Shown: positions 1,455 through 22,103 of the stretch, in pieces
Numbering within the stretch: the first letter of the stretch is position 1
How the letters are laid out: the number at the start of each line of letters is the position of its first letter
Assembly (NCBI GenBank): GCA_903899885.1
Contig: CAIULK010000242.1
Location: forward strand, 1-40,452
Source: an uncultured Rhodospirillaceae bacterium
GTDB lineage: Bacteria; Pseudomonadota; Alphaproteobacteria; Rhodospirillales; Magnetospirillaceae
Direction: 5' to 3'
Length of the DNA: 40,452 nt
Program-made: the position numbers and the translations under genes
Notes under the pieces: model-generated
Databases searched by the model: none
What the model saw: the letters and a program-made list of their open reading frames with translations, nothing else
What the model was told of the DNA's origin: nothing

Positions 1455-1460
1455 GATGGC

Positions 1461-1490
1461 ATGATAGCAAGAAATGCTATCGCGCAGCAA
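1461..1490 (-). promoter_or_regulatory. hicAB promoter with inverted-repeat operator
   Basis: On the minus strand TTGCTG (1490-1485) and TATCAT (1466-1461) are spaced 18 bp. The inverted repeat GATAGCA-N5-TGCTATC (1463-1481) covers the spacer and part of the -10 box. This layout fits autorepression by HicB. The -10 box ends 6 bp before the hicA ATG, which places the transcription start at or next to the start codon. Confidence 0.55.
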
Positions 1491-1534
1491 GCTGGACATA
1501 TGGCTTTCCCGTTCTCAGGTTTTCGACTCGCCCC

Positions 1535-2932: not shown

Positions 2933-3023
2933 CAGAGGCGTCATCGTTTTTCAAGACCCACGAATGACGGTAAAATCCCGGCTCGATCTCGGTGCGAAGG
3001 TGCTCGATGGTTGGCATGGTCAT
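2933..3023 (-). pseudogene. 5' fragment of an unrecognised gene
   Basis: On the minus strand an ATG at 3023-3021 with a fair ribosome site (AAGGGG 3 bp upstream) opens MTMPTIEHLRTEIEPGFYRH, then SWVLKNDDASV. After about 30 codons the frame becomes the antisense of the gpI remnant, so the gene appears cut at the same junction (about 2905-2932) that ends the K-I chimera. I do not recognise the family. Confidence 0.35.
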
Positions 3024-4476: not shown

Positions 4477-5694
4477 ATGAACCTGATCTATATCGATCCC
4501 GGCCTTTACAACAATCTTGGACATCACGCCAATTCGTGCCGCCACATTGTCGGCGAAGCACGGGGGCGCGGCATGCCATGCGCCGTTCTCGGCTATATCG
4601 GGATCGAGCCGTCGCTCAAGGATGAGCTGTTCGCCACCCCGTGGTTCCGGTGCAACACCTATGGAAACTATGACACCGACCCCGTCTGCGGCTGGCTGAT
4701 GAATTTCGAGGTCATGGCGCGCACCACCGCCGAGGACCTGTCCCGGCTGGGGGGGGTGAGCCGCGACGACATCGTTTACCTGAATTCCGCGCAACCGGCG
4801 CAGTTCATGGGCGTGGTGCGCTGGGCCCAATCCCTCCCCGAGGATCAACGCCCCACGGTGGTCCTGGAGTTTGGAACCGATCCGGGCTTGGTCGCGACGG
4901 ACACCGGCGAGGGCCGACGCTTCAGCGCCCAAGACCCCCGCCAAGACTGCCGCGCGACCCTGCTGCGCTATACCGCCCGCATACTGGGCGAGGCCGACCA
5001 GCGGTGGCTGCGGCTGGCGACCTTCGATGCGCAGGCGTCGGGCATTTTCCAGATGCTGCTGGATTTCCCGGTCGGAACGCTGCCCTTGCCGCGACAGGCG
5101 GCCACCTCGTGCCGTGACCGCAGCGGAACGCGGCCGATCACCATTGCCGTTCTTGGCCATCAACGCCTGGAAAAGGGCTACGACATGGTCCCCGAACTGG
5201 CGGCGCGGCTGCTGAACACCCGCAACGACATCCGTCTGCTTATCCATAACGGCTGGCCCGAGGGGTTGGTGACCCAGCAAAACGCGCTGCGCGCCCTGGC
5301 CGCCGCCGATTCAAGGGTGATCCTCAACGAGGAAACCGCTGATTTGACCTTGTGGAACAGCCTCCTCGAGCAATCCGATCTCATCGTCTGCCCCTACAAC
5401 CGCAACCGCTTCATCTCGTCCTATTCGGCGGTGGCGAGCGAGGCCCTGTCCAACGCCATTCCCCTGGTCGTTCCGGAAGGCACCACGATGCACGCGGTCA
5501 TGCGGGAATTCGGCGATCCGGGGACCGTCTACACCGAGGAGACCCCCGATGCGCTGTTCGGCGCCGTGGTCGCCGCCGTCGAGGATTTTGACCGTTTGGC
5601 CGGATTGGCCAAACAAGCCTCCAACCAGTGGGGCATGACGCGGGGAACCGCGAAACTGGTCGATACGTTGTTGTCGTGGCGATCGGCCCCCTGA
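4477..5694 (+). CDS. GT-B fold glycosyltransferase (GT4-like)
   Basis: This 405-residue protein has a GT-B layout. The N-terminal acceptor half includes a Gly/His loop (YNNLGHHANSCRHI, 11-24). The C-terminal nucleotide-sugar half starts with IAVLGHQRLEKGYDMVPELA (223-242), where the G-x-x-x-x-x-KG pattern is typical of GT4-type enzymes. It continues with SDLIVCPYNRNRFISSYSAV (about 300-319) and ASEALSNAIPLVVPEG, the donor-binding E-x7-E-like segment (one Glu is visible). It ends with a helical tail. No membrane segment or signal is present, so it should be cytoplasmic. The ribosome site is weak, and it begins 6 bp after the methyltransferase, so coupled translation is likely. It probably extends a glycan in the surface or protein glycosylation pathway of this island. 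Donor and acceptor cannot be read from sequence. Confidence 0.78.
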   Translation: MNLIYIDPGLYNNLGHHANSCRHIVGEARGRGMPCAVLGYIGIEPSLKDELFATPWFRCNTYGNYDTDPVCGWLMNFEVMARTTAEDLSRLGGVSRDDIVYLNSAQPAQFMGVVRWAQSLPEDQRPTVVLEFGTDPGLVATDTGEGRRFSAQDPRQDCRATLLRYTARILGEADQRWLRLATFDAQASGIFQMLLDFPVGTLPLPRQAATSCRDRSGTRPITIAVLGHQRLEKGYDMVPELAARLLNTRNDIRLLIHNGWPEGLVTQQNALRALAAADSRVILNEETADLTLWNSLLEQSDLIVCPYNRNRFISSYSAVASEALSNAIPLVVPEGTTMHAVMREFGDPGTVYTEETPDALFGAVVAAVEDFDRLAGLAKQASNQWGMTRGTAKLVDTLLSWRSAP

Positions 5695-5709: not shown

Positions 5710-7056
5710 ATGAAAGTCCTGTTCAGCAATCCGCCGTGGTGGCAAGGAGTGGTGCCGGTGCAGACCCCGGACGGGGGCACGGCCAACGTCTATCGCACGG
5801 GTGTGCGTGCCGGGTCACGCTGGCCGTTCACGTTCTTGATCCCCTATCCGCCGGATGATTTTCATTTCGGCTCGTACCTGCCTTATCCATTCTTCATGGG
5901 TGCGGCGGCAACCTATTGCGCCCGGGAATTGGGGGGCGGCGTAACCTTCCGCGACAGCATCGCGTTGCGCGAGTCGTATGACACGTACTTCCAGTACCTG
6001 GAGACCGAGAGGTTCGAGTACATCGTCATGGAATCGGCCTCGCCCAGCTGGGAACACGACAAACTGGTGATCAACGAGGTGGTGCGGCGCCTGCCTCATA
6101 CCCGCTTCATCGTCACCGGGCCGATCACCTCGCACGGCGAGGAACTGCTCGACTCCGCCCCCAACATCCAGGCCACCGTGCGCGGCGAGTACGAGAAGGG
6201 CACGATGAAGGCGCTGAACGGCGCCAACGGCGTGGTGGATTTCGATTTCCTGACGCTTGAGGAAATGAACGCCGCGCCCTTCCCGTATTACGACGAGGTC
6301 TATGCGCCACGCTACTGGGACAGCAATCCGGTGGGGCAGCAATATCCCCAGGCCCAGGTGCTGAGCAGCCGGGGCTGTCCCTTCAAATGCATCTTCTGCG
6401 TCTGGCCGGCGACCATGACCTCGAACGACCCCGACGGCTCTCACAAAAGGACCGTCCGCCAGTACAGCGCCGACTACATGGAAGGGTTCCTGACGGAACT
6501 GGTCCAGAAATACAAATTCAAGTCCGTCTATTTCGACGACGACACCTTTAATCTTGGCGACCGCCATGTCGAGAAAATCTGCGCCATCATGCGCAAGCTT
6601 GGCGTTCCGTGGTCGGCGATGTGCCGCGCCGACACCTCCAGCTTCCACCTCTGGCAAGAGATGAAGGACAGTGGGTGTTTCGGCGTGAAGATCGGCTTCG
6701 AAAGCGGCAACCAAGAGGTGATCGACAAGATCGTCAACAAACGCCTGAACTTGGAAGAAGCACGCCGGGTCGCCCACGAGATCCATCGGGTCGGCATGAC
6801 CCTGCACGGAACCTTCACTTTCGGCCTGCCGGGCGAAACGCCCGAGCAAATCCGCGATACCGAGAATTATATGGCATCGTTGCCCTTGAATTCGTGCCAG
6901 CGATCGGGCTGCGCCGAGATCGAGGGGGCGCCGCTGCACACCCTGACGAAGGGGCTCGGCCTCAAGTCATATCCAGGTGCTCGACTCGACGACAATTATG
7001 TCCGTGCCCCCGACGGCCAACTAAAATTCGAACGAATGCTGGCCGAACGGACGTAA
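5710..7056 (+). CDS. B12-binding-type radical SAM enzyme
   Basis: This 448-residue protein has an excellent ribosome site (AAAGGAG). Residues 1-165 look like a B12-binding-type Rossmann domain (MKVLFSNPPWW, then FIVTGPITSHGEELLDSAP), but the His motif that coordinates cobalt (DxHxxG) is not visible. Residues 215-420 are a radical SAM barrel with the CxxxCxxC cluster Cys223-Cys227-Cys230 (CPFKCIFC). Other barrel motifs are VYFDDDTFNLG, IGFESGNQEVIDKI and FTFGLPGETPEQI. Relatives methylate unactivated carbon or phosphorus or rearrange sugars and peptides. It sits between the GT-B gene and the giant repeat protein, so it may modify a sugar or the repeat protein itself. It is followed by a 290 bp gap and is probably last in its transcript. 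Confidence 0.85.
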   Translation: MKVLFSNPPWWQGVVPVQTPDGGTANVYRTGVRAGSRWPFTFLIPYPPDDFHFGSYLPYPFFMGAAATYCARELGGGVTFRDSIALRESYDTYFQYLETERFEYIVMESASPSWEHDKLVINEVVRRLPHTRFIVTGPITSHGEELLDSAPNIQATVRGEYEKGTMKALNGANGVVDFDFLTLEEMNAAPFPYYDEVYAPRYWDSNPVGQQYPQAQVLSSRGCPFKCIFCVWPATMTSNDPDGSHKRTVRQYSADYMEGFLTELVQKYKFKSVYFDDDTFNLGDRHVEKICAIMRKLGVPWSAMCRADTSSFHLWQEMKDSGCFGVKIGFESGNQEVIDKIVNKRLNLEEARRVAHEIHRVGMTLHGTFTFGLPGETPEQIRDTENYMASLPLNSCQRSGCAEIEGAPLHTLTKGLGLKSYPGARLDDNYVRAPDGQLKFERMLAERT

Positions 7057-7346
7057 TTCCCAGTCCCTCCGGGTAATACCGTAGTCCGGCGAGAGAAGCG
7101 CGCGGAGTACGGCCGAAACCGGGAGCGGTGCCGACTTTGAAACGAGGCGGATGCCCCCGGGAGTCCGGCTTTTTGCGCAATTCGCGGCGCCCAAGGTCTT
7201 TCCCCGATAGCCGTGAACGCGCATTAGTTTCGTTGCCTTCCTCCCAAAAATATGATAGAGCAGTAGTGCTTCGCCTAGAAAAGGCGCAGTGGCCCTTTTC
7301 TTAGGCGGCGAAAGGGCTCAGGAAGTCGTCCAGTAAGGAGCGTGCC
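7057..7346. promoter_or_regulatory. Leader of the giant repeat gene with a long inverted repeat
   Basis: This 290 bp gap holds no gene I can support. A near-perfect inverted repeat lies at 7272-7284 and 7294-7307 (CGCCTAGAAAAGG against CCTTTTCTTAGGCG, one unpaired A, 9-base loop), 40 bp before the start codon. It could be an RNA hairpin in the leader or an operator. A -10-like TATGAT sits at 7251-7256 without a good -35. The ribosome site AAGGAG (7335-7340) is 6 bp before the ATG. A short CCGG-GAGT-CCGG stem followed by TTTTT (about 7156-7175) may end the radical SAM transcript but is weak. Confidence 0.45.
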
Positions 7347-10300
7347 ATGTCCCTGCCCCCCCTCGTTTCCAATTATACCGTCGCGCAGATCCAAACTCAG
7401 CTGACCACCACCACCGTCAGCACCATGACGACGACCGATGCGAGCGCCCTGAAAAGCACGCAATTGGGGGCAATGAACGCGGCCGATTTGGACGCGATGT
7501 CGGCGACCAACATCTTGGATATCGCGACGACGCAGTTGTCGGGACTGTCGTCCAGCCAAGTCAACGATCTGGCCCTGAACTTCAACACCGTCGTGTTCAG
7601 CGCGGCGCAGTTGCTGGTTCTCAGCTCGGTGCAATTCGGCGGGTTCAGCAACGCCACCACCGAGCTTGCCGCCCTGACCACCACCCAGGTGGGGGCGCTG
7701 TCGGCCGCCGACCTCGGCGCCATCGGCCCGACCGGCGCGAGCGCGCTGACGACCACCAGCATCAACAAGCTGACCTCGACCCAAGTCAGCGGCTTGACCG
7801 CCAACGAACTGAATAAACTGAACAATACGCAGCTGACCCAGCTGACGACCACGCAGTTGACCGGCCTCGCGTCCTCCCAGGCGAGCGGCCTGACCTCGAC
7901 GACGGTGGATACCCTGAAAGCCGGCCTCACCGCCGCCGTGGTGGGGCAGTTGTCCGCCACCGCCCTGAGCAACATATCGACCACCGACATCAGCACCCTG
8001 ACCACCACCCAGGCGGGCGGGCTGACCGGCGCCCAGCTCAACGGCGTGAGCACCACGAATTTGGGTGCGTTGACATCGACGGATGTGGCCGTTCTGTCCT
8101 CCACGTCGATCGGCGGCATGACCGGCACGGCCTTGAACAATCTGTCGGCCACCAGCCTCGGGGTTCTAAGCACCACCCAGACCGGTGTGCTGTCCAGCAC
8201 CCAGACCAGCATTTTGACCGCCACCACTCTCAACGCCCTGTCGACGACGGTGCTGAGCAAACTTTCGACCACCCAGGTGAGCGGGCTGACCGCCACCGCC
8301 ATCAACGGGCTTTCCGCCCCCGCCAACGCCGCGCTGACGACAACGTCGGTGGCCAATCTCACCGCCACCCAGCTTGGCGGACTGAGTTCGACGGCGGTGG
8401 ACGCGCTTGAGACCAAGCTCACCGCCGCCGATGTGGGGAAACTCTCCACCACGGCCCTGACCAACATATCGACCACCGACATCAGCACCCTGACCACCAC
8501 CCAGGCGGGCGGGCTGACCGGCGCCCAGCTCAACGGCGTGAGCACCACGAATTTGGGTGCGTTGACATCGACAACGCTGGCCGGTTTGACCACGACGGCG
8601 GCCAGCGGCCTGTCCTCGACCACCGTTGATGCGCTGGAAACCAACCTCGCGGCCGGCTCGATTGGGCAATTGACCGCCACCGCCTTGAATGGCCTGTCGG
8701 TTACCGACATCGGTAATCTGACCGCGACCCAGGCGGGCGGGCTGACCGCCGGGCAGATCAACACCCTGAACACCACCAATCTCGGCTCGCTAACGACAAC
8801 GGCGCTGGGCGGTTTGACCTCAACGTCGGTCAGTGGCTTGAGCGCCACGACTCTTAACAACCTGTCGGTCACCGACATCGGCAACCTGACCTCGACCTCG
8901 GCCAGCGGGCTGACCGCCGCCCAGATCAACGCCGTGACCACCACGAACCTGGGCGCGTTGACGACGACGACGCTGACCGGTTTGTCGGCGACGGCGGCCA
9001 GCGGCCTGACCTCGACGACCCTGACCAACCTGTCGGCAACCGATATCGGCAACCTGACCTCGACCACCGCCAGCGGATTGACCGCCGCGCAGATTAACGG
9101 CCTGAACGCCACGAACCTGGGCGCGTTGACATCGACGACGCTGACCGGCTTGTCGGCAACGGCGGCCGGCAGTCTGACGACCTCGACGGTTCACGCCCTC
9201 GAGACCCTTCTGAACGCCACCGGCGTTGGGCATGTCGCCGCCACGATCCTGAATAGCCTGACCACCACCGATCTTGGCAACTTGACCTCGACCCAGGCGA
9301 GCGGGCTGACCGCAACCCAGATCAGCACCCTGAGCACCACGAAATTGGGCTCGCTGACATCGACGGCGCTGACCGGTCTGTCCGCCACGGCGGTCGGTGG
9401 GCTGACCACCACGATCTTGAATAATCTGTCCGCCACCGATATTGGCTCCCTGACCTCCACCTCGGCTAGCGGGCTGACCGGCGCCCTGGTCAACGGCCTG
9501 AACGCCACGAGTCTGGGTGCGCTATCGACGACGGCGGTGTCCGGCCTGTCCACCACGGCGGCCTCCACCCTGACCTCGACCACCCTGAACAATCTGTCCG
9601 TCAACAACCTCCAGTCCCTGACCTCGACCACGGCCAGTGGGCTGACCGCCGCCGCCATCAACGGCCTGAACGCCACGAGTCTGGGAAACCTGACGACGAC
9701 GACGGTGTCGGGCCTGTCCACCACGGCGGCCTCCACCCTGACCTCGACGGCGGTCGATGGGTTGGAGGCAGGCCTCTCGGCCGCCGCCGTTGGTAAGCTG
9801 ACCACCACGGCGCTGAATGGACTGCCCAACGGCGATATCGGCAACCTAACCTCGACCCAGGCGGCGGGCCTGACCTCGAACCAGATCGTGGGTATCGGCA
9901 CGACCGGGATCAACGGCCTGTCGTGGTTTGCCCAAGCACAGCTTACATCGACGCAGTTGGGCGGCCTAACCGCCACCACCATCAACGCGCTGGACGTCGG
10001 GACCCTCGGTTCGCTATCGACGACGGCGGTATCCGGTTTGTCGACCACCCAGGCTAGCGGCCTGACCTCGACCTCGGTCGATGCGCTGGAGGGCGGCCTG
10101 TCCGCCGCCGCGATCGGCCAACTGACCACCACGGCCCTGATCGGACTATCGACCACCGACATTAACAGCCTGACCTCCACTCAAGTGACGGGTCTGACCT
10201 CGGCCCAGGTTACCGCGATCGCCACCACCCGGATCGACGCCCTGTCGGGCGATGCCCTGGCGAAGCTGACCTCGACGCAGTTGAGCGGCCTGACCGCCAC

Positions 10301-13300
10301 AACCCTGAACGCGCTGGCTACCGCGACCACCAGCGGGCTATCGACGACGGCGGTGTCCGGCCTGTCCACCACCCAGGCCAGCGGCCTGACCTCGACCACG
10401 GTCGATGCGTTGGAGGGCGGCCTGTCCGCCGCCGCGGTGGGGCGTCTGACCAACACGGCCCTGAACAATCTATCGACCACCGATCTGGGCAGCCTGACCG
10501 GCACGCAGGCCGCGGGGCTTTCCACCACCCAGCTCAACACCTTGCAGACCACGACCGTCAACGCCCTGTCGGCGACGGCGCTGGGCTCCCTCTCGACCAC
10601 CCAGGTGGCCGGGCTGACCACCACCACCCTGAACGCGCTGGCCACCGCGACCACCAGCGCGCTATCGACGACGGCGGTGGCCGGTCTATCCACCACCCAG
10701 TTCGGCGGCCTGACCTCGACAACGGTCGATGGGCTGGTCACCAGCTTCTCCGCCGCTGAATTGGGGAATCTGTCCAGCACGGCCCTGAACAACCTGTCCT
10801 CCACCGACCTTGGCGGTCTGTCCTCGACCCAGGTCACGGGGCTGACCAACACTCAGTTCGGCAACCTGACCTCGACCACCGTCAACGCGCTATCGACCAC
10901 GGCGCTGAACCAGCTGTCGTCCGCGCAGGTGAAGGGGCTGGCCACCACCGTCCTTAACGCGCTGACCACCACGGCCGCCGGCGCGCTGTCGGTGTCGGCG
11001 GTGAACAATCTCACCGCAGGCCAGCTCGGCGGGTTGTCGTCGAAGGGGGTGGACGGGCTGTACGGCAACCTGACCGCCGCCGAAGTGCAGAAACTTTCGA
11101 CCACGGCGCTGAACACCCTGTCCAGCACCGATCTCGGCAGCTTGACCTCGACCCAGGTTTCGGGTTTGACCTGCGCCCAGGTCAGCGCCCTGTCCACGAC
11201 GACCCTCAACGCCCTGTCGGTAACCGCGCTGGGCACACTCACCGGCGTGCAAATCAAGGGGATGACCTCCACCACCTTGGACGCCCTCACCTCCACGGCG
11301 GCCAACGCGTTGTCGACGACGGCGCTGTCCGTGCTCTCCGCCGCCCAGTTCGGCGCCCTGCTGTCGACGGGTGTGGACGGGCTCGAAGCCAATTTGAACG
11401 CAACCGAGGTGGGGCAGCTCTCCACCACGGCGCTGAACACCCTTAGCACCACTGACCTTGGCAATCTGACCTCGACCCAGGTCACCGGGCTGAACAAAAC
11501 CCAGCTTAGCAATCTGACCTCGACCACCGTCAACGCGCTGTCGGCGACCGCGCTGGGTCAGATCTCGACCACCCAAGTGACGGCGCTGACCACCACCGTC
11601 CTGAATGCCTTGTCCACCACGACCGCCAGCTCGCTGACGACAACGACGGTGGCCGGCCTTTCCACGACCCAGTTCGGCGGCTTGCTGTCGACAGCGGTGG
11701 ATGGGTTCGAGAGCGGCTTGAACGCCGCCGAGGTGGGGCAACTTTCCGCCGCGGCCTTGAACGCGCTGTCGACCACCGACATCGGCAACCTGACCACGAC
11801 CCAGGCCGTGGGGCTGACCACGACTCAGGCCAACACCCTGACCTCCACCACCGTCAACGCCCTATCGACGACGGTACTGGCCAAGCTGACCACCACCCAG
11901 GTGACCGGCCTGACCGCCACCACCATCAACGCACTCACCACCACCACCACGGGGGCGCTGTCGGCGACGGCGGTGGCCAATCTCTCCACCACCCAGCTGG
12001 GCGGATTGACCTCGACGGCGGTGCATGGACTCCAGTCCAACCTCACCGCCACCACCCTCGGGCAGCTGACCTCCACGGCGCTGAACGGGCTTTCGACCAC
12101 CGATCTTGGCAACATCAGCACGACCGCGGCCACGGGGCTGACCACCAGCCAGCTGAATGCCGTCAACGCCGCCACCGTCAACGCCCTGTCGGCGACGGTG
12201 CTGGGCAAGCTTTCGACCACCCAGGTGACGGGCCTGACCGCCACCACCATCAACGCGCTGTCCACCACCACCAACGCGTCGCTGTCGGCGACGGCGGTGG
12301 CCAACCTCTCCACCACCCAGCTCGGCGGATTGAGCGCGGCGGCGGTGGACGGGCTCAGGGCCAACCTCACCTCCACCGATGTCGGACAACTGTCCGTTGG
12401 GGCTCTGAACGGGCTGTCGACCACCGACCTCGGCAATATTACCACGACCCAGGCCACCGGGCTGTCCACCACCCAGCTGAATTCCGTCAATGCCGCCACG
12501 GTGAATGCCCTGTCGGCGACGGTACTGGGCAAACTTACGACCACCCAGGTGACGGGCCTGACCGCCGGCACCATCAATGCCCTATCGACCACCACCAACG
12601 CGTCGCTATCGACGACGGCGGTGGCCAATCTCTCCACCACCCAGCTGGTCGGATTGACCTCGACGGCGGTGGGTGGGCTCAAGACCCTCCTTACCGCCAC
12701 CGACGTGGGGCAACTGTCCACCACGGCTCTGAACGGTCTATCGACCACCGATCTTGGTAGCCTGAGCACGACCCAGGCGACGGGGCTGTCCACCACCCAG
12801 CTGAATACCGTCACCGCCGCCACGGTCAACGCCCTGTCGGCGACGGCACTGGGCAAGCTTACGACCACCCAGGTGACCGGCCTGACCGCCACCACCATCA
12901 ACGCGCTGTCGACCACCACCAACGCGTCGCTGTCGGCGACGGCGGTGGCCAATCTGTCCACCACCCAGCTGGGCGGACTGTCCTCGACGGCGGTGGACGG
13001 GCTTAAGGCCACCCTCACCTCGACCGACATGGGGCAGCTCACCAGCACGGCGCTGAACGGGCTGTCGGGCAACGACCTCATCAACCTGACCACCACCCAG
13101 GTTTCGGGGCTGAACACCACTCAGATCGGCAACCTCACCACCACCACCCTGACCTCCTTGTCGGGGGCGGCGCTGGCCCAGATCTCGGCCACGCAAGTGA
13201 CGGGCGTCACCGCCACCACGCTCAACGCGCTGGCGGCGACCATCAACGGCGCGCTGTCGGCGACGGCGGTGGCCAGTCTGACCACCACCCAGCTCGGCGG

Positions 13301-16300
13301 CCTGCTCTCGACGGCGATCGATGGGCTGCTGGCCAACCTGACCTCCACCGACGTCGGGCAATTGGCCGCCGGAGCGCTCGATGCCCTATCGACCACCGAT
13401 CTCGGCAATATCAGCACGGTCCAGGTCAGCGGGATCACCGCCACCACGCTCGCCACCCTTCAGACCACCACCATCGCCTCGCTGTCGGCGGATGCGCTGT
13501 CCACGATCTCGTCCACCCAGGTGAGCCAGCTCACCACCACCAACATCAACACGCTTCCGGCCGGGACCTTGACCTTCCTGTCATCGACGGCGGTGGGCGG
13601 GCTTTCCTCCACCCAGGTCGGCGGGCTGACCTCGACGGCGGTGGACGGGCTTGAGAACAGCCTCACCGCCACCGTGGTCGGGCAACTCTCCAGCACGGCC
13701 CTGAACGGACTGTCGGTCGCCGACCTCGGCAACCTCAGCACCACCCAAACCGCCGGGCTGACCGCCACCCAACTCACCGCGTTGACCACCACCACCGTCA
13801 ACGCCCTGTCGGGCGCCGCGCTGGCGCGGATCACGACCACGCAGGTGGTTGGGCTGACCACCTCGGTGATCAACAACCTCTCGGCCGTCACCCTTGGCGG
13901 ATTGTCGACCACGGCGGTGGCCGGGCTCACCAGCTCGCAGTTCGGCGGTCTGAAATCGACGGCGATCGATGGGCTTGAAGCCAGCCTTTCCGCCAGCGAG
14001 GTGGGACAACTGTCCGCCGGTGCCTTGAACACCCTGACCACCACCGATCTCGGCAACCTCAGCACCACGCAGGTCGGCGGGATCTCCGCCACCACGCTCG
14101 GCAGCCTGACCACCACCACCGTCAACGCCCTGTCGGGAGACGCTATCGCCGGCCTCTCGACGACGCAGGTGAACGGGTTGACCGTTATCAACTCGCTCTC
14201 CGCCACGACGTTGAGCCTCCTGTCCACGACGGCGGTGGCCGGTCTTTCCTCCTCGCTGCTCGGCGGCCTGACCTCGACGACGCTGGATGCGCTGGAAACC
14301 AAGCTGACCGCCCCGAACGTGAGCCAGCTCTCGGTTCCGCCGGTGAACAACCTGTCGACAACCGACATCAGCACCCTGACCACCACACAGGTCTCGGGGT
14401 TGAGCACCACTCAGATCGGCGGCCTGACCACCTCCGCCATCAACTCGCTGTCGGGACCGGTTTTGGCCAGTCTATCGACAACACAGGTCAACGGGCTTAC
14501 CGCCATCAACTCGCTCGACGCCGCGACCCTCGGCGCTCTCTCGACGACGGCCGTGGTCGGTCTCTCGACCACCCAGCTTGGCGGTCTGACCTCGACCACG
14601 GTGGACGTGCTCGAACCCACTTTGACCGCCCCGGAGGTGGGGAGTTTGTCGGTCACCACCGTGAACAACCTGACCACCACCGACCTCGGTAACCTATCGA
14701 CGACCCAGGTCACCGGGCTATCGGTCACCCAAATCAGCCAACTCGGCTCGACCGCGATCAACGCGCTGTCGGACAACGCGCTGGCCCAGCTTTCGACCAC
14801 GCAGGTGCATGCCCTCACCGCCACGCAGATGGGCTCGCTGGACACCTCCACCATCGACGCATTGTCGCCGACGGCGTTGACCAGCCTGAGTTCGGCGCAG
14901 TTGCGCGGGCTTAGCACCAATCAGCTCAACAGTCTGACCACCTCGACCCTGGGCTCGCTGGCCTCGGCCGCGATGCAGTACCTCAGCACCACGCAGGTCA
15001 CAAACCTGCAATCGGCCGCGATCGATGGTTTCGAGGCCAACCTCACCGCCGGTCAAGTGGCTCAGTTGAGCACCACGACGCTGAACGCGCTATCGACCAC
15101 CGACCTCGGCACCCTGACCACCACCCAGGTGTCTGGCCTTACCAGCGCCCAGTTCGGCGGGCTTGCCACCACCACGGTCAACGCGCTGTCCACAACGGCG
15201 CTCGGCAGCCTGACCGTGGCACCGCAAGGTCTGACCACGACCACGCTGGCCGGTCTCGTCACCACCACGATCAACGCGTTGGCCCCCTCGCTGACCGGGC
15301 TGAGCGTGACGCAGGTGGGCAACTTGACCACCTCGCAGATCAACAGCATCACCGCCACGACGCTGGGGGACTTGACCCAGGCGCAGGTGCGCGGCGGCCT
15401 CTCCGCCACCCAACTCGGCGGATTGACCTCCTCGGCACTGCATGTGCTGGCGCCCAATCTTTCGGGCACCGAAGTCGGGCAACTTGCCACCACGGCCTTG
15501 AACAACCTGACGACCACCGACATCGGCGGCCTGTCCGCCGTCGAGGCGCGCGGGTTCAGCACCACGCAGTTGGGCGGCCTGGACAGCACGCGAGTCAACG
15601 CGCTGTCGAACGCCGCGCTCGGCACCTTGTCGGCGACGCAAGTCAGCGGCTTGACCACCACGGTGCTGAACGGCCTGACGGCCACGACCCTGGGGGCGCT
15701 GTCCGTCGCCTCGGTCCAAGGTCTGTCCACGGCTCAAGTCAGCGGCTTGACGGCGACGACGCTGGGAACGCTGGAACTGGCGTTGACCAGCACCGAGGCG
15801 GGGCAGCTTTCCACCACCGCGTTGAATGGTCTGACGACCACCAAGGCAAATCTTCTGTCCTCCACGCAGGTGGCCGGGTTCACGGCCACCCAGATCGGCG
15901 GCCTTAAGACCACCACCATCAACGCGTTGACGACCACCGCCGTGGGCACCGTGAACGCGGCCCAGGTGCGCGGCCTCAACACCACGCAGATCCAAACTCT
16001 GACCACCACGGCGCTGGGCGCGCTGTCGGCGACCGCCGTGGCGGGGCTGACCAGCACGACGGTGAACGGGCTCAATGCCCCGACCCTGGCCACCCTGACG
16101 ACCACCCAAGTCAGCCTGCTCCAGCCGATCCAGGTCTTGGCCTTGACCACCACCGCGGTCAACGCGCTCTCGACCACCGCGCTGGGAAGCCTGACCGGTG
16201 CCCAGGCGCGCGGTCTGACCACCTCGGTCCTGAACGCCATGACCTCGACAGCGCTTGGCGCGCTGTCGGCAACCGCCGTGGCCGGGCTGACGCAAGGCCA

Positions 16301-18014
16301 ACTCGGCGGCTTGGCATCGACGGCGGTCGATGGCCTCGAGGCCAGCCTCACCGGTGGCGCGGCGGGTCTTCTGACCACCACGGCGCTGAACGCCCTATCG
16401 ACCACCGATATCGGCAATCTCAGCACCACGCAGGCGCATGGGTTGGCGGCCGGTCAGCTTGGGGCTCTCACCAGCACCACGCTCAGCTCGCTCTCGACCA
16501 CCGTCCAGGGTGCGTTGAGCGCGGCGCAGGTCCAGGCCCTCAGCACCACGCAGATCAACAACGTCACCACCACGGCGGTAAGCGCCCTGTCGGCGACGGC
16601 GATCAAGGGCATGACCACGACGACGCTGAGCGGATTGTCGGTGGCCAACCTCGGCAGCTTGACCGCCACGCAGGCGGCCAGTCTGACGACCACGCAGTTG
16701 AGTGCGAGCTTCACCACAACCACCGCCAACGCGCTGACGACGACCGATCTTGGCTCGCTGTCGGCCACCCAGGCACTCGCACCGGTCAACTTCCTGTCGG
16801 CGACCGCGCTTGCCGCATTGTCGACCACCCAGGTCCGGTCGCTATCGACCACCCAGCTCAACGAGCTCGGTGCCGCCACGCTGGGCTCGCTGTCGGCGAC
16901 CTCGGCCGGCAACCTTACCGCCAGCCAAGTCGGCGGGCTTACCTCGACCTCGGTCGATGGCCTGATCGGAACCCTGACCTCCACCGAGGTGAGCAGCCTC
17001 ACCACCACGGCGCTCAACGGCCTGTCGACCACCGATATCGGCAACCTGAGCACCACCCAGGTCACCGGGCTGACCATCACTCAGATCGGCGACACGGTCT
17101 TCGGGATCACCACCCTCGGCACGCTATCGACCACGGCGCTGGGGCAATTGTCGACCACCCAGGTGCAGGCTTTGTCCACCACCCAGCTTACCGACGCGGC
17201 CGTCACCACGACCACGCTGGGGGCTTTGTCGGCAACGGCGGTGGGCGGACTTACCGCCTCGCAAGTTGGCGGCCTGACCTCGACGGCGGTGGACGGGTTG
17301 TACGCCAACCTCACCGCAACCGGACTGGGCGAGATCGACCCGGCGGCGCTGAACGCGCTATCGACCACCGACCTCGGCAACTTGACCGCCACCCAGGTGG
17401 TTGGGCTGACGACCACCCAGTTGGGCGACGCCACCACGGTCACCACCACCGTCAACGCACTGTCGGCGAATGCGCTGGGCGCCCTAAGCTCGACGCAGGT
17501 GAACGGGCTGACCTCGACCACCGTCAATACCCTCAGCGGGGCCACGCTGACCTCGCTATCGACGACGGCGGTTTCGGGACTTTCCAACGCGCTGTTGGGC
17601 AACCTGACCTCGACATCGGTGGATTGGCTCGAAGCCAACCTCACCTCCACCGAGGTGGGTCAGCTCACCACCACGACCGTCAACGCACTGTCCGCCAACG
17701 ACCTCGGCTTCCTGACCAGCACGCAGGTGACCGGACTGTCGGTAACCCAGGTCCACGCGGCGACCACCACCACCCTCAACGCGCTGTCGGTCGATGCGCT
17801 GGGGGCTCTGACTGGCACCCAAATCCGCCAGCTCACCACGACGACGCTGAACAGCCTGACCGGCTACGCGGTGTCCTCGCTGGGAACAACGGCGGTCGGC
17901 GGGCTTACCACCACGCAGATCAACGGCTTGACCAGCGCGGCGGCGGATGCACTGACCACCAGCGGCGTGACCTGGACCGCAAACCAGCTCAGCGCTTACA
18001 ACTCGGTGGCGTAA
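7347..18014 (+). CDS. Giant 3555-residue Thr/Ser-rich octapeptide-repeat protein
   Basis: After a less regular first 110 residues, the protein is built almost wholly of octapeptides with the pattern L-[ST]-[TSA]-T-x-[LVI]-x-[GNA] (for example LSTTQVTG, LTATTINA, LSATAVAN). By eye, 27 longer 12-residue units (such as LEANLTSTEVGQ) interrupt the octads. Where the array is most regular (about 12000-13650) one unit recurs every 108 residues (12 octads + 12 residues = 324 bp). In a hand-counted block Thr is about a quarter and Thr+Ser over a third. Charged and aromatic residues are scarce, and I noticed one Cys. There is no signal peptide, membrane segment, LPxTG or obvious type I secretion tail; it ends TANQLSAYNSVA. 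N-x-S/T sequons are frequent. Relatives are annotated only as 'beta strand repeat' proteins in proteobacteria. The likely role is a fibrous or S-layer-like surface protein, perhaps glycosylated by the adjacent GT41 enzymes (inference). Confidence 0.85.
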   Translation: MSLPPLVSNYTVAQIQTQLTTTTVSTMTTTDASALKSTQLGAMNAADLDAMSATNILDIATTQLSGLSSSQVNDLALNFNTVVFSAAQLLVLSSVQFGGFSNATTELAALTTTQVGALSAADLGAIGPTGASALTTTSINKLTSTQVSGLTANELNKLNNTQLTQLTTTQLTGLASSQASGLTSTTVDTLKAGLTAAVVGQLSATALSNISTTDISTLTTTQAGGLTGAQLNGVSTTNLGALTSTDVAVLSSTSIGGMTGTALNNLSATSLGVLSTTQTGVLSSTQTSILTATTLNALSTTVLSKLSTTQVSGLTATAINGLSAPANAALTTTSVANLTATQLGGLSSTAVDALETKLTAADVGKLSTTALTNISTTDISTLTTTQAGGLTGAQLNGVSTTNLGALTSTTLAGLTTTAASGLSSTTVDALETNLAAGSIGQLTATALNGLSVTDIGNLTATQAGGLTAGQINTLNTTNLGSLTTTALGGLTSTSVSGLSATTLNNLSVTDIGNLTSTSASGLTAAQINAVTTTNLGALTTTTLTGLSATAASGLTSTTLTNLSATDIGNLTSTTASGLTAAQINGLNATNLGALTSTTLTGLSATAAGSLTTSTVHALETLLNATGVGHVAATILNSLTTTDLGNLTSTQASGLTATQISTLSTTKLGSLTSTALTGLSATAVGGLTTTILNNLSATDIGSLTSTSASGLTGALVNGLNATSLGALSTTAVSGLSTTAASTLTSTTLNNLSVNNLQSLTSTTASGLTAAAINGLNATSLGNLTTTTVSGLSTTAASTLTSTAVDGLEAGLSAAAVGKLTTTALNGLPNGDIGNLTSTQAAGLTSNQIVGIGTTGINGLSWFAQAQLTSTQLGGLTATTINALDVGTLGSLSTTAVSGLSTTQASGLTSTSVDALEGGLSAAAIGQLTTTALIGLSTTDINSLTSTQVTGLTSAQVTAIATTRIDALSGDALAKLTSTQLSGLTATTLNALATATTSGLSTTAVSGLSTTQASGLTSTTVDALEGGLSAAAVGRLTNTALNNLSTTDLGSLTGTQAAGLSTTQLNTLQTTTVNALSATALGSLSTTQVAGLTTTTLNALATATTSALSTTAVAGLSTTQFGGLTSTTVDGLVTSFSAAELGNLSSTALNNLSSTDLGGLSSTQVTGLTNTQFGNLTSTTVNALSTTALNQLSSAQVKGLATTVLNALTTTAAGALSVSAVNNLTAGQLGGLSSKGVDGLYGNLTAAEVQKLSTTALNTLSSTDLGSLTSTQVSGLTCAQVSALSTTTLNALSVTALGTLTGVQIKGMTSTTLDALTSTAANALSTTALSVLSAAQFGALLSTGVDGLEANLNATEVGQLSTTALNTLSTTDLGNLTSTQVTGLNKTQLSNLTSTTVNALSATALGQISTTQVTALTTTVLNALSTTTASSLTTTTVAGLSTTQFGGLLSTAVDGFESGLNAAEVGQLSAAALNALSTTDIGNLTTTQAVGLTTTQANTLTSTTVNALSTTVLAKLTTTQVTGLTATTINALTTTTTGALSATAVANLSTTQLGGLTSTAVHGLQSNLTATTLGQLTSTALNGLSTTDLGNISTTAATGLTTSQLNAVNAATVNALSATVLGKLSTTQVTGLTATTINALSTTTNASLSATAVANLSTTQLGGLSAAAVDGLRANLTSTDVGQLSVGALNGLSTTDLGNITTTQATGLSTTQLNSVNAATVNALSATVLGKLTTTQVTGLTAGTINALSTTTNASLSTTAVANLSTTQLVGLTSTAVGGLKTLLTATDVGQLSTTALNGLSTTDLGSLSTTQATGLSTTQLNTVTAATVNALSATALGKLTTTQVTGLTATTINALSTTTNASLSATAVANLSTTQLGGLSSTAVDGLKATLTSTDMGQLTSTALNGLSGNDLINLTTTQVSGLNTTQIGNLTTTTLTSLSGAALAQISATQVTGVTATTLNALAATINGALSATAVASLTTTQLGGLLSTAIDGLLANLTSTDVGQLAAGALDALSTTDLGNISTVQVSGITATTLATLQTTTIASLSADALSTISSTQVSQLTTTNINTLPAGTLTFLSSTAVGGLSSTQVGGLTSTAVDGLENSLTATVVGQLSSTALNGLSVADLGNLSTTQTAGLTATQLTALTTTTVNALSGAALARITTTQVVGLTTSVINNLSAVTLGGLSTTAVAGLTSSQFGGLKSTAIDGLEASLSASEVGQLSAGALNTLTTTDLGNLSTTQVGGISATTLGSLTTTTVNALSGDAIAGLSTTQVNGLTVINSLSATTLSLLSTTAVAGLSSSLLGGLTSTTLDALETKLTAPNVSQLSVPPVNNLSTTDISTLTTTQVSGLSTTQIGGLTTSAINSLSGPVLASLSTTQVNGLTAINSLDAATLGALSTTAVVGLSTTQLGGLTSTTVDVLEPTLTAPEVGSLSVTTVNNLTTTDLGNLSTTQVTGLSVTQISQLGSTAINALSDNALAQLSTTQVHALTATQMGSLDTSTIDALSPTALTSLSSAQLRGLSTNQLNSLTTSTLGSLASAAMQYLSTTQVTNLQSAAIDGFEANLTAGQVAQLSTTTLNALSTTDLGTLTTTQVSGLTSAQFGGLATTTVNALSTTALGSLTVAPQGLTTTTLAGLVTTTINALAPSLTGLSVTQVGNLTTSQINSITATTLGDLTQAQVRGGLSATQLGGLTSSALHVLAPNLSGTEVGQLATTALNNLTTTDIGGLSAVEARGFSTTQLGGLDSTRVNALSNAALGTLSATQVSGLTTTVLNGLTATTLGALSVASVQGLSTAQVSGLTATTLGTLELALTSTEAGQLSTTALNGLTTTKANLLSSTQVAGFTATQIGGLKTTTINALTTTAVGTVNAAQVRGLNTTQIQTLTTTALGALSATAVAGLTSTTVNGLNAPTLATLTTTQVSLLQPIQVLALTTTAVNALSTTALGSLTGAQARGLTTSVLNAMTSTALGALSATAVAGLTQGQLGGLASTAVDGLEASLTGGAAGLLTTTALNALSTTDIGNLSTTQAHGLAAGQLGALTSTTLSSLSTTVQGALSAAQVQALSTTQINNVTTTAVSALSATAIKGMTTTTLSGLSVANLGSLTATQAASLTTTQLSASFTTTTANALTTTDLGSLSATQALAPVNFLSATALAALSTTQVRSLSTTQLNELGAATLGSLSATSAGNLTASQVGGLTSTSVDGLIGTLTSTEVSSLTTTALNGLSTTDIGNLSTTQVTGLTITQIGDTVFGITTLGTLSTTALGQLSTTQVQALSTTQLTDAAVTTTTLGALSATAVGGLTASQVGGLTSTAVDGLYANLTATGLGEIDPAALNALSTTDLGNLTATQVVGLTTTQLGDATTVTTTVNALSANALGALSSTQVNGLTSTTVNTLSGATLTSLSTTAVSGLSNALLGNLTSTSVDWLEANLTSTEVGQLTTTTVNALSANDLGFLTSTQVTGLSVTQVHAATTTTLNALSVDALGALTGTQIRQLTTTTLNSLTGYAVSSLGTTAVGGLTTTQINGLTSAAADALTTSGVTWTANQLSAYNSVA

Positions 18015-18041
18015 GGCCGTCTGGGCTGGGAGTGCTGGTGA

Positions 18042-20057
18042 ATGGGGATGGAGATTTTTCTCGGCGCCGTCGGAGCGCTGTCGGAGGGAAGACTTGGCGC
18101 CGGGGATCTGCTCGGCGCGGCGGAGCAATTAACGGCGGAGGGCAGGGCCGACCTTGCCCTCCAGCTCTACAAACTGTGGATTGCTCTTTATCCCACCAGC
18201 CCCGCCCTTCACGCGGTCTGTTTCAACCATGGTGTTCTGGCTGCGAATTGCGGGGATCTTGCCTCCGCGACGGCCGCCTATGAGCGGTCGATCACCGCGA
18301 ATCCGGATTTCATACCGGCCTATATCAACCTCGGCTCGGTGCTGGAGCGTCAAGGCGCCGCCGCCGAGGCCGTGCGTCAATGGCAGGCCGCCGTCGAGCG
18401 ATTGGCCCCGGTAACGGGCTCGGCCGTCCGTTTGAAGACCATGGCGCTTCGCCAACTCGGCCGCGTGGTGGACTCCCATGGCCGCCCCGCCGCCGAAGCG
18501 GCGCTGCGGCAAATTCTGGAGATGAACGATAAAGAGGGCGACGTCGCCGAGCACTTTATCGCTTTGCGGCTGCTTCAATGCAAATCGCCGGTGGTCGAGG
18601 CTCCCGAGGGGGCGAGCATGGAAACGCTGCTGCGCAGCATGCACCCGCTGTCGGCGGCCGCCTTCGCCGATCATCCGCTGTTCAATCTGGCGGTGAACTG
18701 GAACTATAACCGCAAGCGTGTCGGCTATAAGGTTCCGGTGCTTGATGCCAAGCCCGCCGCCGATACCGATCGCAAGCAGCTGCGCATCGGATATCTGTCC
18801 TCGGACTTGTGCGCGCACGCGGTCGGCTATTTGATCGTCGAGGCGATGGAGCTGCACGACAAGGACAAGCTGGAAACCGTCGTCTACTACTGCGGCCCGC
18901 CGTCCGCCGACTGGATCAATGCCCGGATCAGGGCATCGGCCGACCAATGGGTCGATATCAACGACATGGACGACGAGACGGCGGCCCGCCGTATCCAGGC
19001 GGACGGGGTCGATATTCTGGTCGATCTGAATGGCAACACCAAGGGATCGCGGACCCGCATCTGCGCCATGCGCCCGGCGCCGGTCATCGTGAATTGGCTG
19101 GGCTTCCCCGGCACCATGGCCAGTCCCTATCACCACTACATCATCGCCGACGAGTGGATCCTTCCCGAGGGGGCCGAGATCTACGTCTCGGAAAAGGTCA
19201 CCCGGCTGCCGTGCTACCAACCCAATGACCGCAAACGGCAGATCGCGCCGCAACGGCCCACGCGACAGGACATGGGACTGCCCGAGGACGCCATGGTCTA
19301 TTGCTGCTTCAACTGGTCGCAGAAGATCAGCCGGCCGATTTTCAAGATGTGGATGAGCATCCTGGCCGAAGTCCCGAACAGCGTGCTTTGGCTGCTCGAC
19401 ACCGACGCCGAAACCAACCGCCATTTGACCGGCTTGGCCGCCGAACACGGGATCGGCCCGGAACGGCTGGTCTTCGGCAAGTGGATGTCCAGCCCCGATC
19501 ATCTGGCGCGTTACCCGCTGGCCGATCTTTTCCTCGACACCTACCCCTACGGCGCCCACACCACGGCGTCGGACGCGTTGTGGATGGGGGTGCCGATCTT
19601 GACCCTGTCCGGGCGATCCTTCGCCTCGCGGGTGTGCGGCAGCCTCGCCCGCTCGGCCGGGGTCGGCGATCTGGTCTGCGCCACGCCCGAGGAATATATC
19701 GCGCGGGCGGTCGCACTGGGCCGCGCCCCGGACCGGACCCGGCGCTACAAGGAGCAGCTCGAAGCCACCCGGACCACCTGCACGCTGTTCGATACCAACC
19801 TGTTGGTCCGCCATCTCGAGGACCTCTACGCCGGGATGTGGGAGGATTACCGCAAGGGAACCCTGCCGCGGCCCGACATCACCAACCTCGACGTCTATCT
19901 CGATGTCGCGGTCGAGGATGATATCGAAACGCTGCGCATGACCGACGTGGCGGATTACCCGGAATGGTTCCGCGAGAAGCTGGCCCGCCGCCACCGGTCC
20001 TGCCCCATTCCCGCGGACAGCCGGTTATGGACCGCGGCGGCCCGTTCGCCGACCTGA
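18042..20057 (+). CDS. TPR + GT41 (O-GlcNAc transferase/SPINDLY-like) glycosyltransferase
   Basis: This 671-residue protein has tetratricopeptide helices in residues about 25-130 (HGVLAANCGDLASATAAYER, then YINLGSVLERQGAAAEAVRQ) and a GT41 catalytic region from about 245 to 640. Visible OGT landmarks are IGYLSSDLCAHAVGYLI (His at the position of the OGT active-site His), FNWSQKISRPIF (conserved UDP-binding Lys) and YPYGAHTTASDALWMGVPIL, then SRVCGSL (the donor loop). GT41 enzymes transfer GlcNAc, fucose or glucose to Ser, Thr or Asn of proteins in the cytoplasm. It starts 27 bp after the giant repeat gene on the same strand, so the two are almost surely co-transcribed, and the repeat protein is the obvious candidate acceptor. 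Its 3' end overlaps the convergent paralogue by 33 bp. An alternative start is the ATG at 18048. Confidence 0.92.
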   Translation: MGMEIFLGAVGALSEGRLGAGDLLGAAEQLTAEGRADLALQLYKLWIALYPTSPALHAVCFNHGVLAANCGDLASATAAYERSITANPDFIPAYINLGSVLERQGAAAEAVRQWQAAVERLAPVTGSAVRLKTMALRQLGRVVDSHGRPAAEAALRQILEMNDKEGDVAEHFIALRLLQCKSPVVEAPEGASMETLLRSMHPLSAAAFADHPLFNLAVNWNYNRKRVGYKVPVLDAKPAADTDRKQLRIGYLSSDLCAHAVGYLIVEAMELHDKDKLETVVYYCGPPSADWINARIRASADQWVDINDMDDETAARRIQADGVDILVDLNGNTKGSRTRICAMRPAPVIVNWLGFPGTMASPYHHYIIADEWILPEGAEIYVSEKVTRLPCYQPNDRKRQIAPQRPTRQDMGLPEDAMVYCCFNWSQKISRPIFKMWMSILAEVPNSVLWLLDTDAETNRHLTGLAAEHGIGPERLVFGKWMSSPDHLARYPLADLFLDTYPYGAHTTASDALWMGVPILTLSGRSFASRVCGSLARSAGVGDLVCATPEEYIARAVALGRAPDRTRRYKEQLEATRTTCTLFDTNLLVRHLEDLYAGMWEDYRKGTLPRPDITNLDVYLDVAVEDDIETLRMTDVADYPEWFREKLARRHRSCPIPADSRLWTAAARSPT

Positions 20058-22103
20058 CGGCCGGTCCCTCCCCGGTTCTTCCGCCTTACCGCAATCCCCC
20101 GGCCACAGCCGGACATCGAACGGAACGGGCGCATAGGCGTGCCGCTCGCGCAGCCGCTCCCGGTACAGTTCCTCGTAATCGGCGACCGTCATCATCTCGA
20201 GGTCGTCGCGGTCGAGCGACGTGCCGATTTCGTCGTAAATCTCCAAATTGCGAAGATCGGGAGTGGGCAGCCCGTCCTGCCGGTAATCTTCCCACATCTC
20301 CAGCAGCAGATCGTCCAAGTGGGTCATCAGCTTGTCGATATTGAACAGGTCGCAGGTGTCGCGGCTATCGACCAGCTTTTGGCGCAACGCCGCCAGCTTG
20401 GTCCGGTCGGTGCCCAGCTCCACCGCGCGGCGCACATAGTCGTCAAGCGAATCGCAGACCAATTCGGGAAGGCCGGCCGCCGTCACCAGGCTACCGCACA
20501 CCCGGGCGGCGAAGCCCCGCCCGGCCGCCGTCAGGACCGGAACCCCCATCCACAGGGCGTCGGACGCGGTGGTGTGGCCGCCGCAAGGCGCCGCGTCGAG
20601 GAACAAATCCCCCAACGGATAGCGCGCCAGATGCTCGTGGTTGACCAAGGCCTGGGCGAAGATCAGCCGCTCGGGCGCGATGCCCTGTTCCTTGGCCAGC
20701 TCGCGCAGGCGGGCCTCGGTGGTGTCGTAGCTGCCGAACAACCACAGCACGCTTCCCGGAACCTGCGCGAGAATCGACATATGGCGCCGCCACATTGCCG
20801 CCGTCAGTTTCTTGGTGCCGTTGAACGAACAAAAAACCGTCCCTTGCTCGGGCAAGCCCGCGTCGGCCCGCGTCCATGACCGGTTCGCCACCAGCCGCTG
20901 ACGGTCGTTGGGCTGATAACAGGGCAGGCGCAACACCTTTTCGCCGTAGTATTTTTCGTACCCCGGAGGAATGATGAAGTCGTCGGCAATGACGTAGTTA
21001 TGATACGGCGTGCCCATCGAACCGGGGTAACCCAGCCAGTTGACGATGATCGGCGCCGGCCGCAACGCCATCACGTTCAGGCGGGCCGCGCCGGTATATC
21101 CGTTGAAGTCGATCAGAATGTCGATTTCGTCGTCGAGAATCCGCCGCGCCGTCTGTTCGTCGGTCATGCCGCCGACATCGACCCAATGATCGACGCCGTT
21201 CTTGATGCGCAGCTGAATCCGGTCGGCGGTGTAGTCCGAGCACGAATAGGCGAACACCTCGAATTTCTTGCGGTCGTGCAGTTCATACATCCCGGCGGTC
21301 AGGTAACCGTGGGCGTGTTCGCGCAGATAGGACGAAAAATAACCGATCCGGATACGCCGGTTCTTGGCCGCGTTCCTCGCCCGGTCACGATGAAGCGCGT
21401 GCAGCGAGCCCGGCGGCTGACCAACCTTACGCTTGTAATAGGCGGTCCCGCGCGCGAGGTGCAGCAACGGATCGTCGGTGTGGAAGATCAGGCAGTGCGG
21501 CGACATCCCCGAGAACAGCGTTTTGCGCGGGACATTGCCGATTCCCGCCATCACCGGCCACTTGCATTGGGATTGCCGCAACGAGATCCAATGCTGGATG
21601 GCGTCGGCCTCGGCCTTGATCTCGATCGCTTGGCGCAACGCGTCCTCGGCCGAGGTTTCGAGCGCGGTTTTCTCCAGAACCCGTCCGATGTGCTTGAGCG
21701 CCATCAGCTTGTAGCCGACGGTTTCCCCGGTGATCCCGGCCAGCGCGTTGACGACCGACAGCCAATGGCCGACGGCCTCGGCGATCACCCCATCCCGCTC
21801 GGCGACGCTGCCCAAATTGAGATGGGGCGGGACGAAATCGGGCTTGAGCCGGATCGCCGCGGCATAAGCGTCGCGCGCCCGCGCAAGCTCGCCGCGCTCC
21901 GCCAACAAAACCCCAAGATTGAAATGGACGGCGGGGGCATTCGGATCGCCGGCATTATGGTCCAGCCATGTTTGGAAAAGGGCAACGGCGTGTTCCCCCT
22001 TGCCTTCCCCGCCCAACCGGATACAGACATCGAACAGCTCGGCGACACCAAGTTTACGTGTCCGCGCCATTTCTTGAACGGCAACAAGATCGATCATGCT
22101 CAT
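20025..22103 (-). CDS. Second TPR + GT41 glycosyltransferase, convergent paralogue
   Basis: This 692-residue protein has the same architecture as the plus-strand copy: TPR-like helices (FNLGVLLAERGELARARDAY, then HLNLGSVAERDGVIAEAVGH) and a GT41 half with IRIGYFSSYLREHAHGYL, CSFNGTKKLTAAMW, CGGHTTASDALWMGVPVLTA and ARVCGSL. The two are clearly diverged over their whole length, so they are old paralogues that may differ in donor or acceptor. The last 15 or so residues (basic, Gly/Arg-rich) are encoded in the 33 bp that overlap the other gene's end, so they are probably dispensable. It lies 64 bp downstream of the methyltransferase-GT9 fusion and is likely in its operon. The ATG at 22097 is an alternative start. 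No strong Shine-Dalgarno is seen. Confidence 0.92.
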   Translation of the reverse strand: MSMIDLVAVQEMARTRKLGVAELFDVCIRLGGEGKGEHAVALFQTWLDHNAGDPNAPAVHFNLGVLLAERGELARARDAYAAAIRLKPDFVPPHLNLGSVAERDGVIAEAVGHWLSVVNALAGITGETVGYKLMALKHIGRVLEKTALETSAEDALRQAIEIKAEADAIQHWISLRQSQCKWPVMAGIGNVPRKTLFSGMSPHCLIFHTDDPLLHLARGTAYYKRKVGQPPGSLHALHRDRARNAAKNRRIRIGYFSSYLREHAHGYLTAGMYELHDRKKFEVFAYSCSDYTADRIQLRIKNGVDHWVDVGGMTDEQTARRILDDEIDILIDFNGYTGAARLNVMALRPAPIIVNWLGYPGSMGTPYHNYVIADDFIIPPGYEKYYGEKVLRLPCYQPNDRQRLVANRSWTRADAGLPEQGTVFCSFNGTKKLTAAMWRRHMSILAQVPGSVLWLFGSYDTTEARLRELAKEQGIAPERLIFAQALVNHEHLARYPLGDLFLDAAPCGGHTTASDALWMGVPVLTAAGRGFAARVCGSLVTAAGLPELVCDSLDDYVRRAVELGTDRTKLAALRQKLVDSRDTCDLFNIDKLMTHLDDLLLEMWEDYRQDGLPTPDLRNLEIYDEIGTSLDRDDLEMMTVADYEELYRERLRERHAYAPVPFDVRLWPGDCGKAEEPGRDRPSGRRTGRRGP

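Follow-up and report, generated by a model that had tools for sequence, protein, structure and literature searches.

A giant octad-repeat protein encoded beside OGT-type GT41 enzymes: a candidate bacterial O-glycosylation system

The octad-repeat gene and its GT41 neighbours

The window analyzed here is a stretch of 40,452 bases that makes up an entire contig (CAIULK010000242.1; G000:C242) in the 3.44-Mb genome of an uncultured Rhodospirillaceae bacterium (assembly GCA_903899885.1); G, C and L numbers are our handles for genomes, contigs and loci. The system in question consists of a giant gene built of eight-residue repeats (octads), a downstream gene for a TPR-containing glycosyltransferase of the GT41 family (GT41A), and a second such gene on the opposite strand (GT41B):

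7347..18014, plus strand: octad-repeat protein (ALTTAQ, PF20080) of 3,555 aa, proposed glycan carrier and predicted short-helix solenoid (Pfam, periodicity, AlphaFold)
18042..20057, plus strand: GT41A, a TPR and OGT-type GT41 protein of 671 aa from the octad-linked clade (PF13844, TPR models, tree)
20025..22103, minus strand: GT41B, a second TPR and GT41 protein of 692 aa from the octad-linked clade (PF13844, TPR models, tree)

The original prediction for this locus described a nearly uncharged, Thr/Ser-rich repeat protein of 3555 residues with a GT41 gene 27 bp downstream and a second GT41 gene converging on the first, and these features are confirmed. In the giant protein, the probability of finding a Leu eight residues after another Leu is 0.64 versus 0.166 in shuffled sequences (maximum 0.202), with values of 0.02–0.03 at spacings 7 and 9. 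Ser and Thr account for 35% of the residues and charged residues (D+E+K+R) for 152 of 3,555 (4.3%); the calculated isoelectric point and mass are 4.05 and 345 kDa. The octad consensus, L-[ST]-[TSA]-T-[QA]-[VIL]-x-[GA], is present in approximately 440 copies with 2.9 Ser/Thr per unit. The repeat is already a named Pfam family without an assigned function, PF20080, which scores above the gathering threshold in the giant protein (434.8 bits, E 1.3e-133, 38 stretches). This match, the GC content at third codon positions (0.88) and dozens of in-frame homologues support the giant open reading frame (ORF) as a real coding sequence. Additional Pfam matches to HlyD_2 and CAAP1 were rejected as composition artefacts, as no separate stretch passes. 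At positions 9694-14614 of the window, the octads are overlaid by a longer periodicity of 324 bp (108 aa, which is not a multiple of 8). Each 324-bp unit contains one copy of a longer element such as VDGLEANLTATEVGQL, which corresponds to a longer helix in the structural model described below.

The gap between the giant gene and GT41A is 27 bp, and this spacing together with the common orientation suggests co-transcription. GT41B converges on GT41A with a 33-bp overlap at the GT41A end; the two genes are codirectional in the relatives G007 and G018, so that GT41B appears inverted in the window. Both proteins match TPR models as well as PF13844 (262.7 and 266.1 bits for GT41A and GT41B at a cut-off of 25; E 7e-78 and 6e-79). 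GT41A aligns to human OGT and XcOGT across both catalytic halves, its residues H259, K428, H506-T508 and D511 corresponding to OGT H498, K842, H920-T921-T922 and D925, and motifs corresponding to the OGT catalytic residues are also present in GT41B. In OGT, H498, K842, H920-T922 and D925 have catalytic roles. Both enzymes are OGT-type GT41 proteins with retained catalytic residues and predicted transferase activity. They score only 15.1 and 30.2 bits against the NGT equivalog model of NCBIfam (NF049992, cut-off 1000 bits), far below the level of that identity.

Recurrence of the octad-GT41 pair

Named genomes were scanned with a GT41A profile and the 80 closest loci were kept, a GT41A-first design that reveals the neighbour of this particular clade. 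An octad-repeat ORF adjoins the GT41A homologue in 73 of the 80 loci; in 70 it immediately precedes the GT41 gene on the same strand, the gap having a median of 90 bp and a maximum of 276 bp. The arrangement is divergent in three loci (L102, L123, L138), and type I secretion genes stand between the octad and GT41 genes in L144 and L145. Among the seven loci without an octad ORF, four have the GT41 gene near a contig end, a weaker octad-like ORF precedes GT41 in L113, and L121 and L143 have no such ORF. The pairing spans Alphaproteobacteria, Verrucomicrobiota, Desulfovibrionaceae (Solidesulfovibrio) and Myxococcota, a range far beyond Rhodospirillales, the order in which the original prediction proposed to look for recurrence. 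Unusual GT41 architectures were also encountered. In a metagenome-assembled genome (MAG) of Magnetococcales, L121 3861-11390 encodes a 2,509-aa protein made up of three consecutive TPR-GT41 units; since it contains no octads, it was ruled out as an octad-GT41 fusion. In L087 (622-4419) and L133 (1946-5575), GT41 is fused to an extra C-terminal part of ~500-600 aa that is glycosyltransferase-like.

Searches that start from the repeat give a complementary picture. The repeat is present in 10 of 41 genomes of the window's family, and in all seven family genomes searched for GT41, plus G006, an octad gene lies near a GT41 gene, at distances of at most a few hundred bases to a few kilobases. Octad genes are rare in random samples of the class (6/385 genomes) and the phylum (28/398), and not all of them have a GT41 gene nearby: among the 41 octad genes with scored composition in the octad-first samples, 18 have one within ~10 kb. 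As GT41 genes occur in 38% of the class genomes, with a few per genome, a proximity of a few percent would be expected by chance (binomial p 4e-17, assuming 3% and ignoring kinship). The genus g389 has several giant octad proteins per genome, some exceeding 5,000 aa (G478, G513, G524, G534), and their genes mostly lack GT41 or secretion genes in the vicinity.

In a tree of 87 GT41 sequences (a quick tree without bootstrap, with support from the Shimodaira-Hasegawa-like approximate likelihood ratio test, SH-aLRT), the octad-linked GT41 proteins of all phyla form a single clade of 57 rows with an SH-aLRT value of 97, which includes GT41B of the window. The four other GT41 proteins of the same genome (C152, C88, C214, C155) fall outside this clade and have no octad gene nearby. 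One row within the clade that was labelled as lacking an octad gene, L167 from Pseudoroseomonas, in fact carries one, an ORF at 978-3005 that had been missed by automatic gene picking. The recurrent linkage and the separation of the linked enzymes from other GT41 proteins provide good genomic support for the originally proposed carrier-plus-transferase system. Paramagnetospirillum marisnigri (G424, the genome of L066) has a tandem array of about a dozen or more GT41 genes at ~82-134 kb of contig C28 and 46 PF13844 matches genome-wide.

Candidate acceptor positions, export and neighbouring genes

An AlphaFold2 model of the N-terminal 300 residues of the giant protein, based on 21 homologues, has a mean predicted local distance difference test value (pLDDT) of 88 and consists of short helices in series, one per octad. 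Octad positions 3-6 are always helical in the model and position 2 almost never is, suggesting that Ser/Thr at position 2 is a helix N-cap, with Q/D/E at position 5; this arrangement accounts in structural terms for Ser/Thr at position 2 and for Gln at position 5. The designed octad protein HeliScrew4 (PDB 9zem) matches by sequence (E 5.5e-8). It shares the octad sequence repeat but has only 120 residues, and its positions 3-4 are occupied by Pro/Glu, Thr being infrequent there, which argues that the fold does not depend on Thr at these positions. The best structural match, a weak one to the superhelix of human mesothelin, reaches template modelling (TM) scores of only ~0.3, and matches to viral models in Foldseek had low TM-scores throughout and were dismissed.

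If positions 3-4 are the acceptors, Ser/Thr enrichment would be expected there in octad proteins encoded beside GT41, and such enrichment is seen. Ser/Thr frequencies at positions 3/4 are 0.75/0.79 in GT41-neighbouring octad proteins versus 0.53/0.57 in others (Mann-Whitney p 0.002 and 0.0001, respectively, not corrected for kinship). Moreover, in the five genomes with both kinds (G213, G018, G007, G241, G740) the linked copy exceeds the stand-alone average in Ser/Thr at positions 3-4. Ser/Thr retention between orthologue pairs does not cleanly separate linked from stand-alone proteins; the argument for acceptors therefore rests on composition. The 'enormous array of equally spaced sites' of the original prediction thus stands at most for positions 3-4, as N-capping explains much of the Ser/Thr found at position 2.

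Possible routes of export are suggested by gene neighbourhoods in other genomes. Genes for a type I secretion ABC protein and HlyD adjoin octad genes in Niveispirillum (L144, L145), L125/L126, G003a and Pseudoroseomonas (L167). The same pair lies beside the octad gene in at least five genomes of family f213, together with a divergent TPR-GT41 protein. The TPR-GT41 proteins divergent from the ABC-HlyD-octad genes in L231 (2231-5980), L224 and L234-L237 have 1,250-1,360 aa, and the one that was scanned, from L231, contains an extra GT2 domain, which suggests a two-step glycan. Within the window's own family, G016 has an ABC-HlyD pair followed by an octad protein, and contig C191 of the window's genome encodes a 51% homologue of the G016 ABC protein, again with HlyD. 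Suspected type I secretion genes near stand-alone octad genes in G018 and G016 proved to be asparagine synthase and amidohydrolase.

A gene resembling UDP-glucuronate decarboxylase (UDP-xylose synthase; UDP, uridine diphosphate) was found within 10 kb in ~18 loci and directly beside GT41 in several. It was discarded as a co-occurrence marker, being present in 35 of 41 relatives, and because it is so common only its position is informative; that position hints that UDP-xylose may be a sugar donor.

Other features of the window that surround the octad-GT41 genes are as follows:

4477..5694, plus strand: GT4-like glycosyltransferase (gene order kept in G007 and G018, 66-70% identity)
5710..7056, plus strand: radical SAM protein, upstream of the octad gene (equivalent position in G007 and G018, 78% identity)
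7272..7307, no strand: imperfect inverted repeat CGCCTAGAAAAGG / CCTTTTCTTAGGCG between the radical SAM gene and the octad start
22168..23724, minus strand: GT9 (heptosyltransferase-like) and methyltransferase protein, adjoining GT41B

The GT4-like protein is a possible glycan extension enzyme. The GT9 and methyltransferase protein is likewise a possible glycan enzyme, and its gene is not conserved in the relatives checked. The inverted repeat is a possible operator or 5' hairpin and was not seen in G007 or G018. No tRNA genes or Rfam families were found in the window. At its left edge (874-2932), HicB-like, phage minor tail L-like and Prok-JAB genes may be a phage or gene-transfer-agent remnant, and a cell-division and peptidoglycan cluster (ftsA, ddl, mur ligase, murG, ftsW) occupies the minus strand at 31545-39224.

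A proposed glycosylation system and its alternatives

In the scenario that we favour, the octad protein would adopt an elongated solenoid fold in which every eight residues contribute one short helix. The TPR arms of GT41A, and probably also those of GT41B, would engage this solenoid in the cytoplasm, and the enzymes would O-glycosylate Thr/Ser residues exposed where the helices begin (positions 3-4), position 2 serving mainly as a structural N-cap. Neighbouring glycosyltransferases would possibly extend the sugar. The glycoprotein would then be exported, most likely via a type I secretion system encoded elsewhere in the genome (contig C191), yielding an extracellular or surface-bound glycan-bearing strand for coat, matrix or adhesion. 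We consider it probable, judging from the genomic evidence, that the octad protein is glycosylated by its own GT41; export and the identity of the sugar are proposed with less confidence.

Several observations weigh against this scenario. Ser/Thr at position 2 needs no glycosylation according to the model. There are octad proteins without GT41 nearby, some of them still Thr-rich (G007c, G509), and in G758 position 4 is almost never Ser/Thr despite an adjacent GT41, so that a different acceptor position would be needed there. No secretion genes are present in the window, the ABC-HlyD genes of C191 have no adjoining octad gene, and no homologue of the G016-type ABC protein was found in G018 or G017 at E 1e-100.

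Alternatively, the octad protein may be glycosylated and remain in the cytoplasm, serving there as a scaffold or as a storage filament, with the link to type I secretion restricted to other lineages. Consistent with this, neither a classical signal peptide nor a known secretion domain was seen in the giant protein, and most GT41A-linked loci have no adjacent secretion genes. However, the ABC-HlyD-octad gene order occurs in several lineages, including G016 of the window's family, and a related ABC-HlyD pair is present on C191 in the same genome, which makes an intracellular product unlikely.

Another scenario holds that GT41A and GT41B act on a different target such as flagellin, the octad protein being an unmodified neighbour or scaffold with purely structural Ser/Thr, as the N-cap position of residue 2 would favour. 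A precedent is FlmG of Caulobacter, in which N-terminal TPRs bind the acceptor and a C-terminal GT-B glycosyltransferase domain modifies flagellins before export (PMC7591256), an alphaproteobacterial architecture similar to that of GT41A. Furthermore, a Ser/Thr-rich (25%) flagellar-hook-like gene directly follows the octad-GT41 pair in G017 (L055 1092-2642). On the other hand, FlmG transfers pseudaminic acid to flagellin, and the single PF13844 gene found in Caulobacter segnis is the one adjoining its octad gene. No flagellin gene was recognized in the window, and no recurrent neighbour family related to flagellin or pseudaminic acid was noted, although neighbours were not exhaustively annotated. 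The constant GT41 neighbour across phyla is the octad gene rather than flagellar genes, and Thr enrichment at positions 3-4 tracks GT41 proximity, leaving a target of the flagellin type with only a small chance of being correct. Finally, horizontal spread of linked pairs would likewise produce clustering and MAG contigs can be mis-binned, but a pairing that merely reflects an accident of shared ancestry is very improbable, since its persistence through ~50% protein divergence, several phyla and changed gene orders (L102, L123, L138; L144, L145) is hard to maintain without selection.

Glycosylation of the octad protein by its own GT41 has a parallel in the HMW1A/HMW1C system of Haemophilus, where a large secreted adhesin is modified at many sites before export by its own cytoplasmic GT41 N-glucosyltransferase (PMC3012730, PMC3983070, PMC10507012). 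Thus, a large exported protein with a dedicated GT41 is already known, and the octad system, in which export is proposed, resembles it in encoding a large protein with its own GT41. In contrast, HMW1A/HMW1C relies on two-partner secretion and Asn sequons and does not have the octad-solenoid carrier, the OGT-type TPR enzyme or the type I exporter linked to octad genes in other lineages; no two-partner secretion domain or outer-membrane partner was found in the giant protein or the scanned neighbour proteins. Human OGT, XcOGT (2jlb) and the OGT-like enzyme of T. terrenum (PMC4683255) share the TPR arm, the GT41 domain and the catalytic residues with GT41A, which lacks the insert between the catalytic halves of OGT; however, no giant repeat protein is dedicated to these enzymes as an acceptor. 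Giant type I secreted adhesins of the RTX or LapA type are also very large and repetitive, with adjacent ABC and HlyD genes as in some octad lineages, whereas no Pfam match to RTX glycine-rich calcium-binding nonapeptides or another known adhesin domain was found in the 3,555 aa of the window protein.

Searches of the open literature on the repeat, on HeliScrew and on GT41 in combination with giant or type I secreted proteins yielded no publication about the octad-GT41 pairing, subscription papers and preprints not being covered; in this respect the original view of an undescribed system stands, except that the repeat itself was already in Pfam. Taken as a whole, the system may tentatively be viewed as a widespread, hitherto undescribed form of bacterial O-glycosylation, in which a dedicated TPR-GT41 clade would modify Thr/Ser at each helix start of an octad-solenoid carrier, with UDP-xylose as a possible donor, and type I secretion would deliver a sugar-coated rod, the number of repeats determining its length. 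It offers a concrete candidate substrate for bacterial OGT-like enzymes of a large clade that lack assigned targets, and a candidate function for PF20080. With hundreds of nearly identical sites arranged along a regular solenoid, such an acceptor would also be well suited as a model of the way in which extended substrates are read by TPR-GT41 enzymes, human OGT among them. Should the octad proteins be exported, they would represent a novel type of bacterial glycoprotein, located at the surface or in the matrix and distributed across several phyla.

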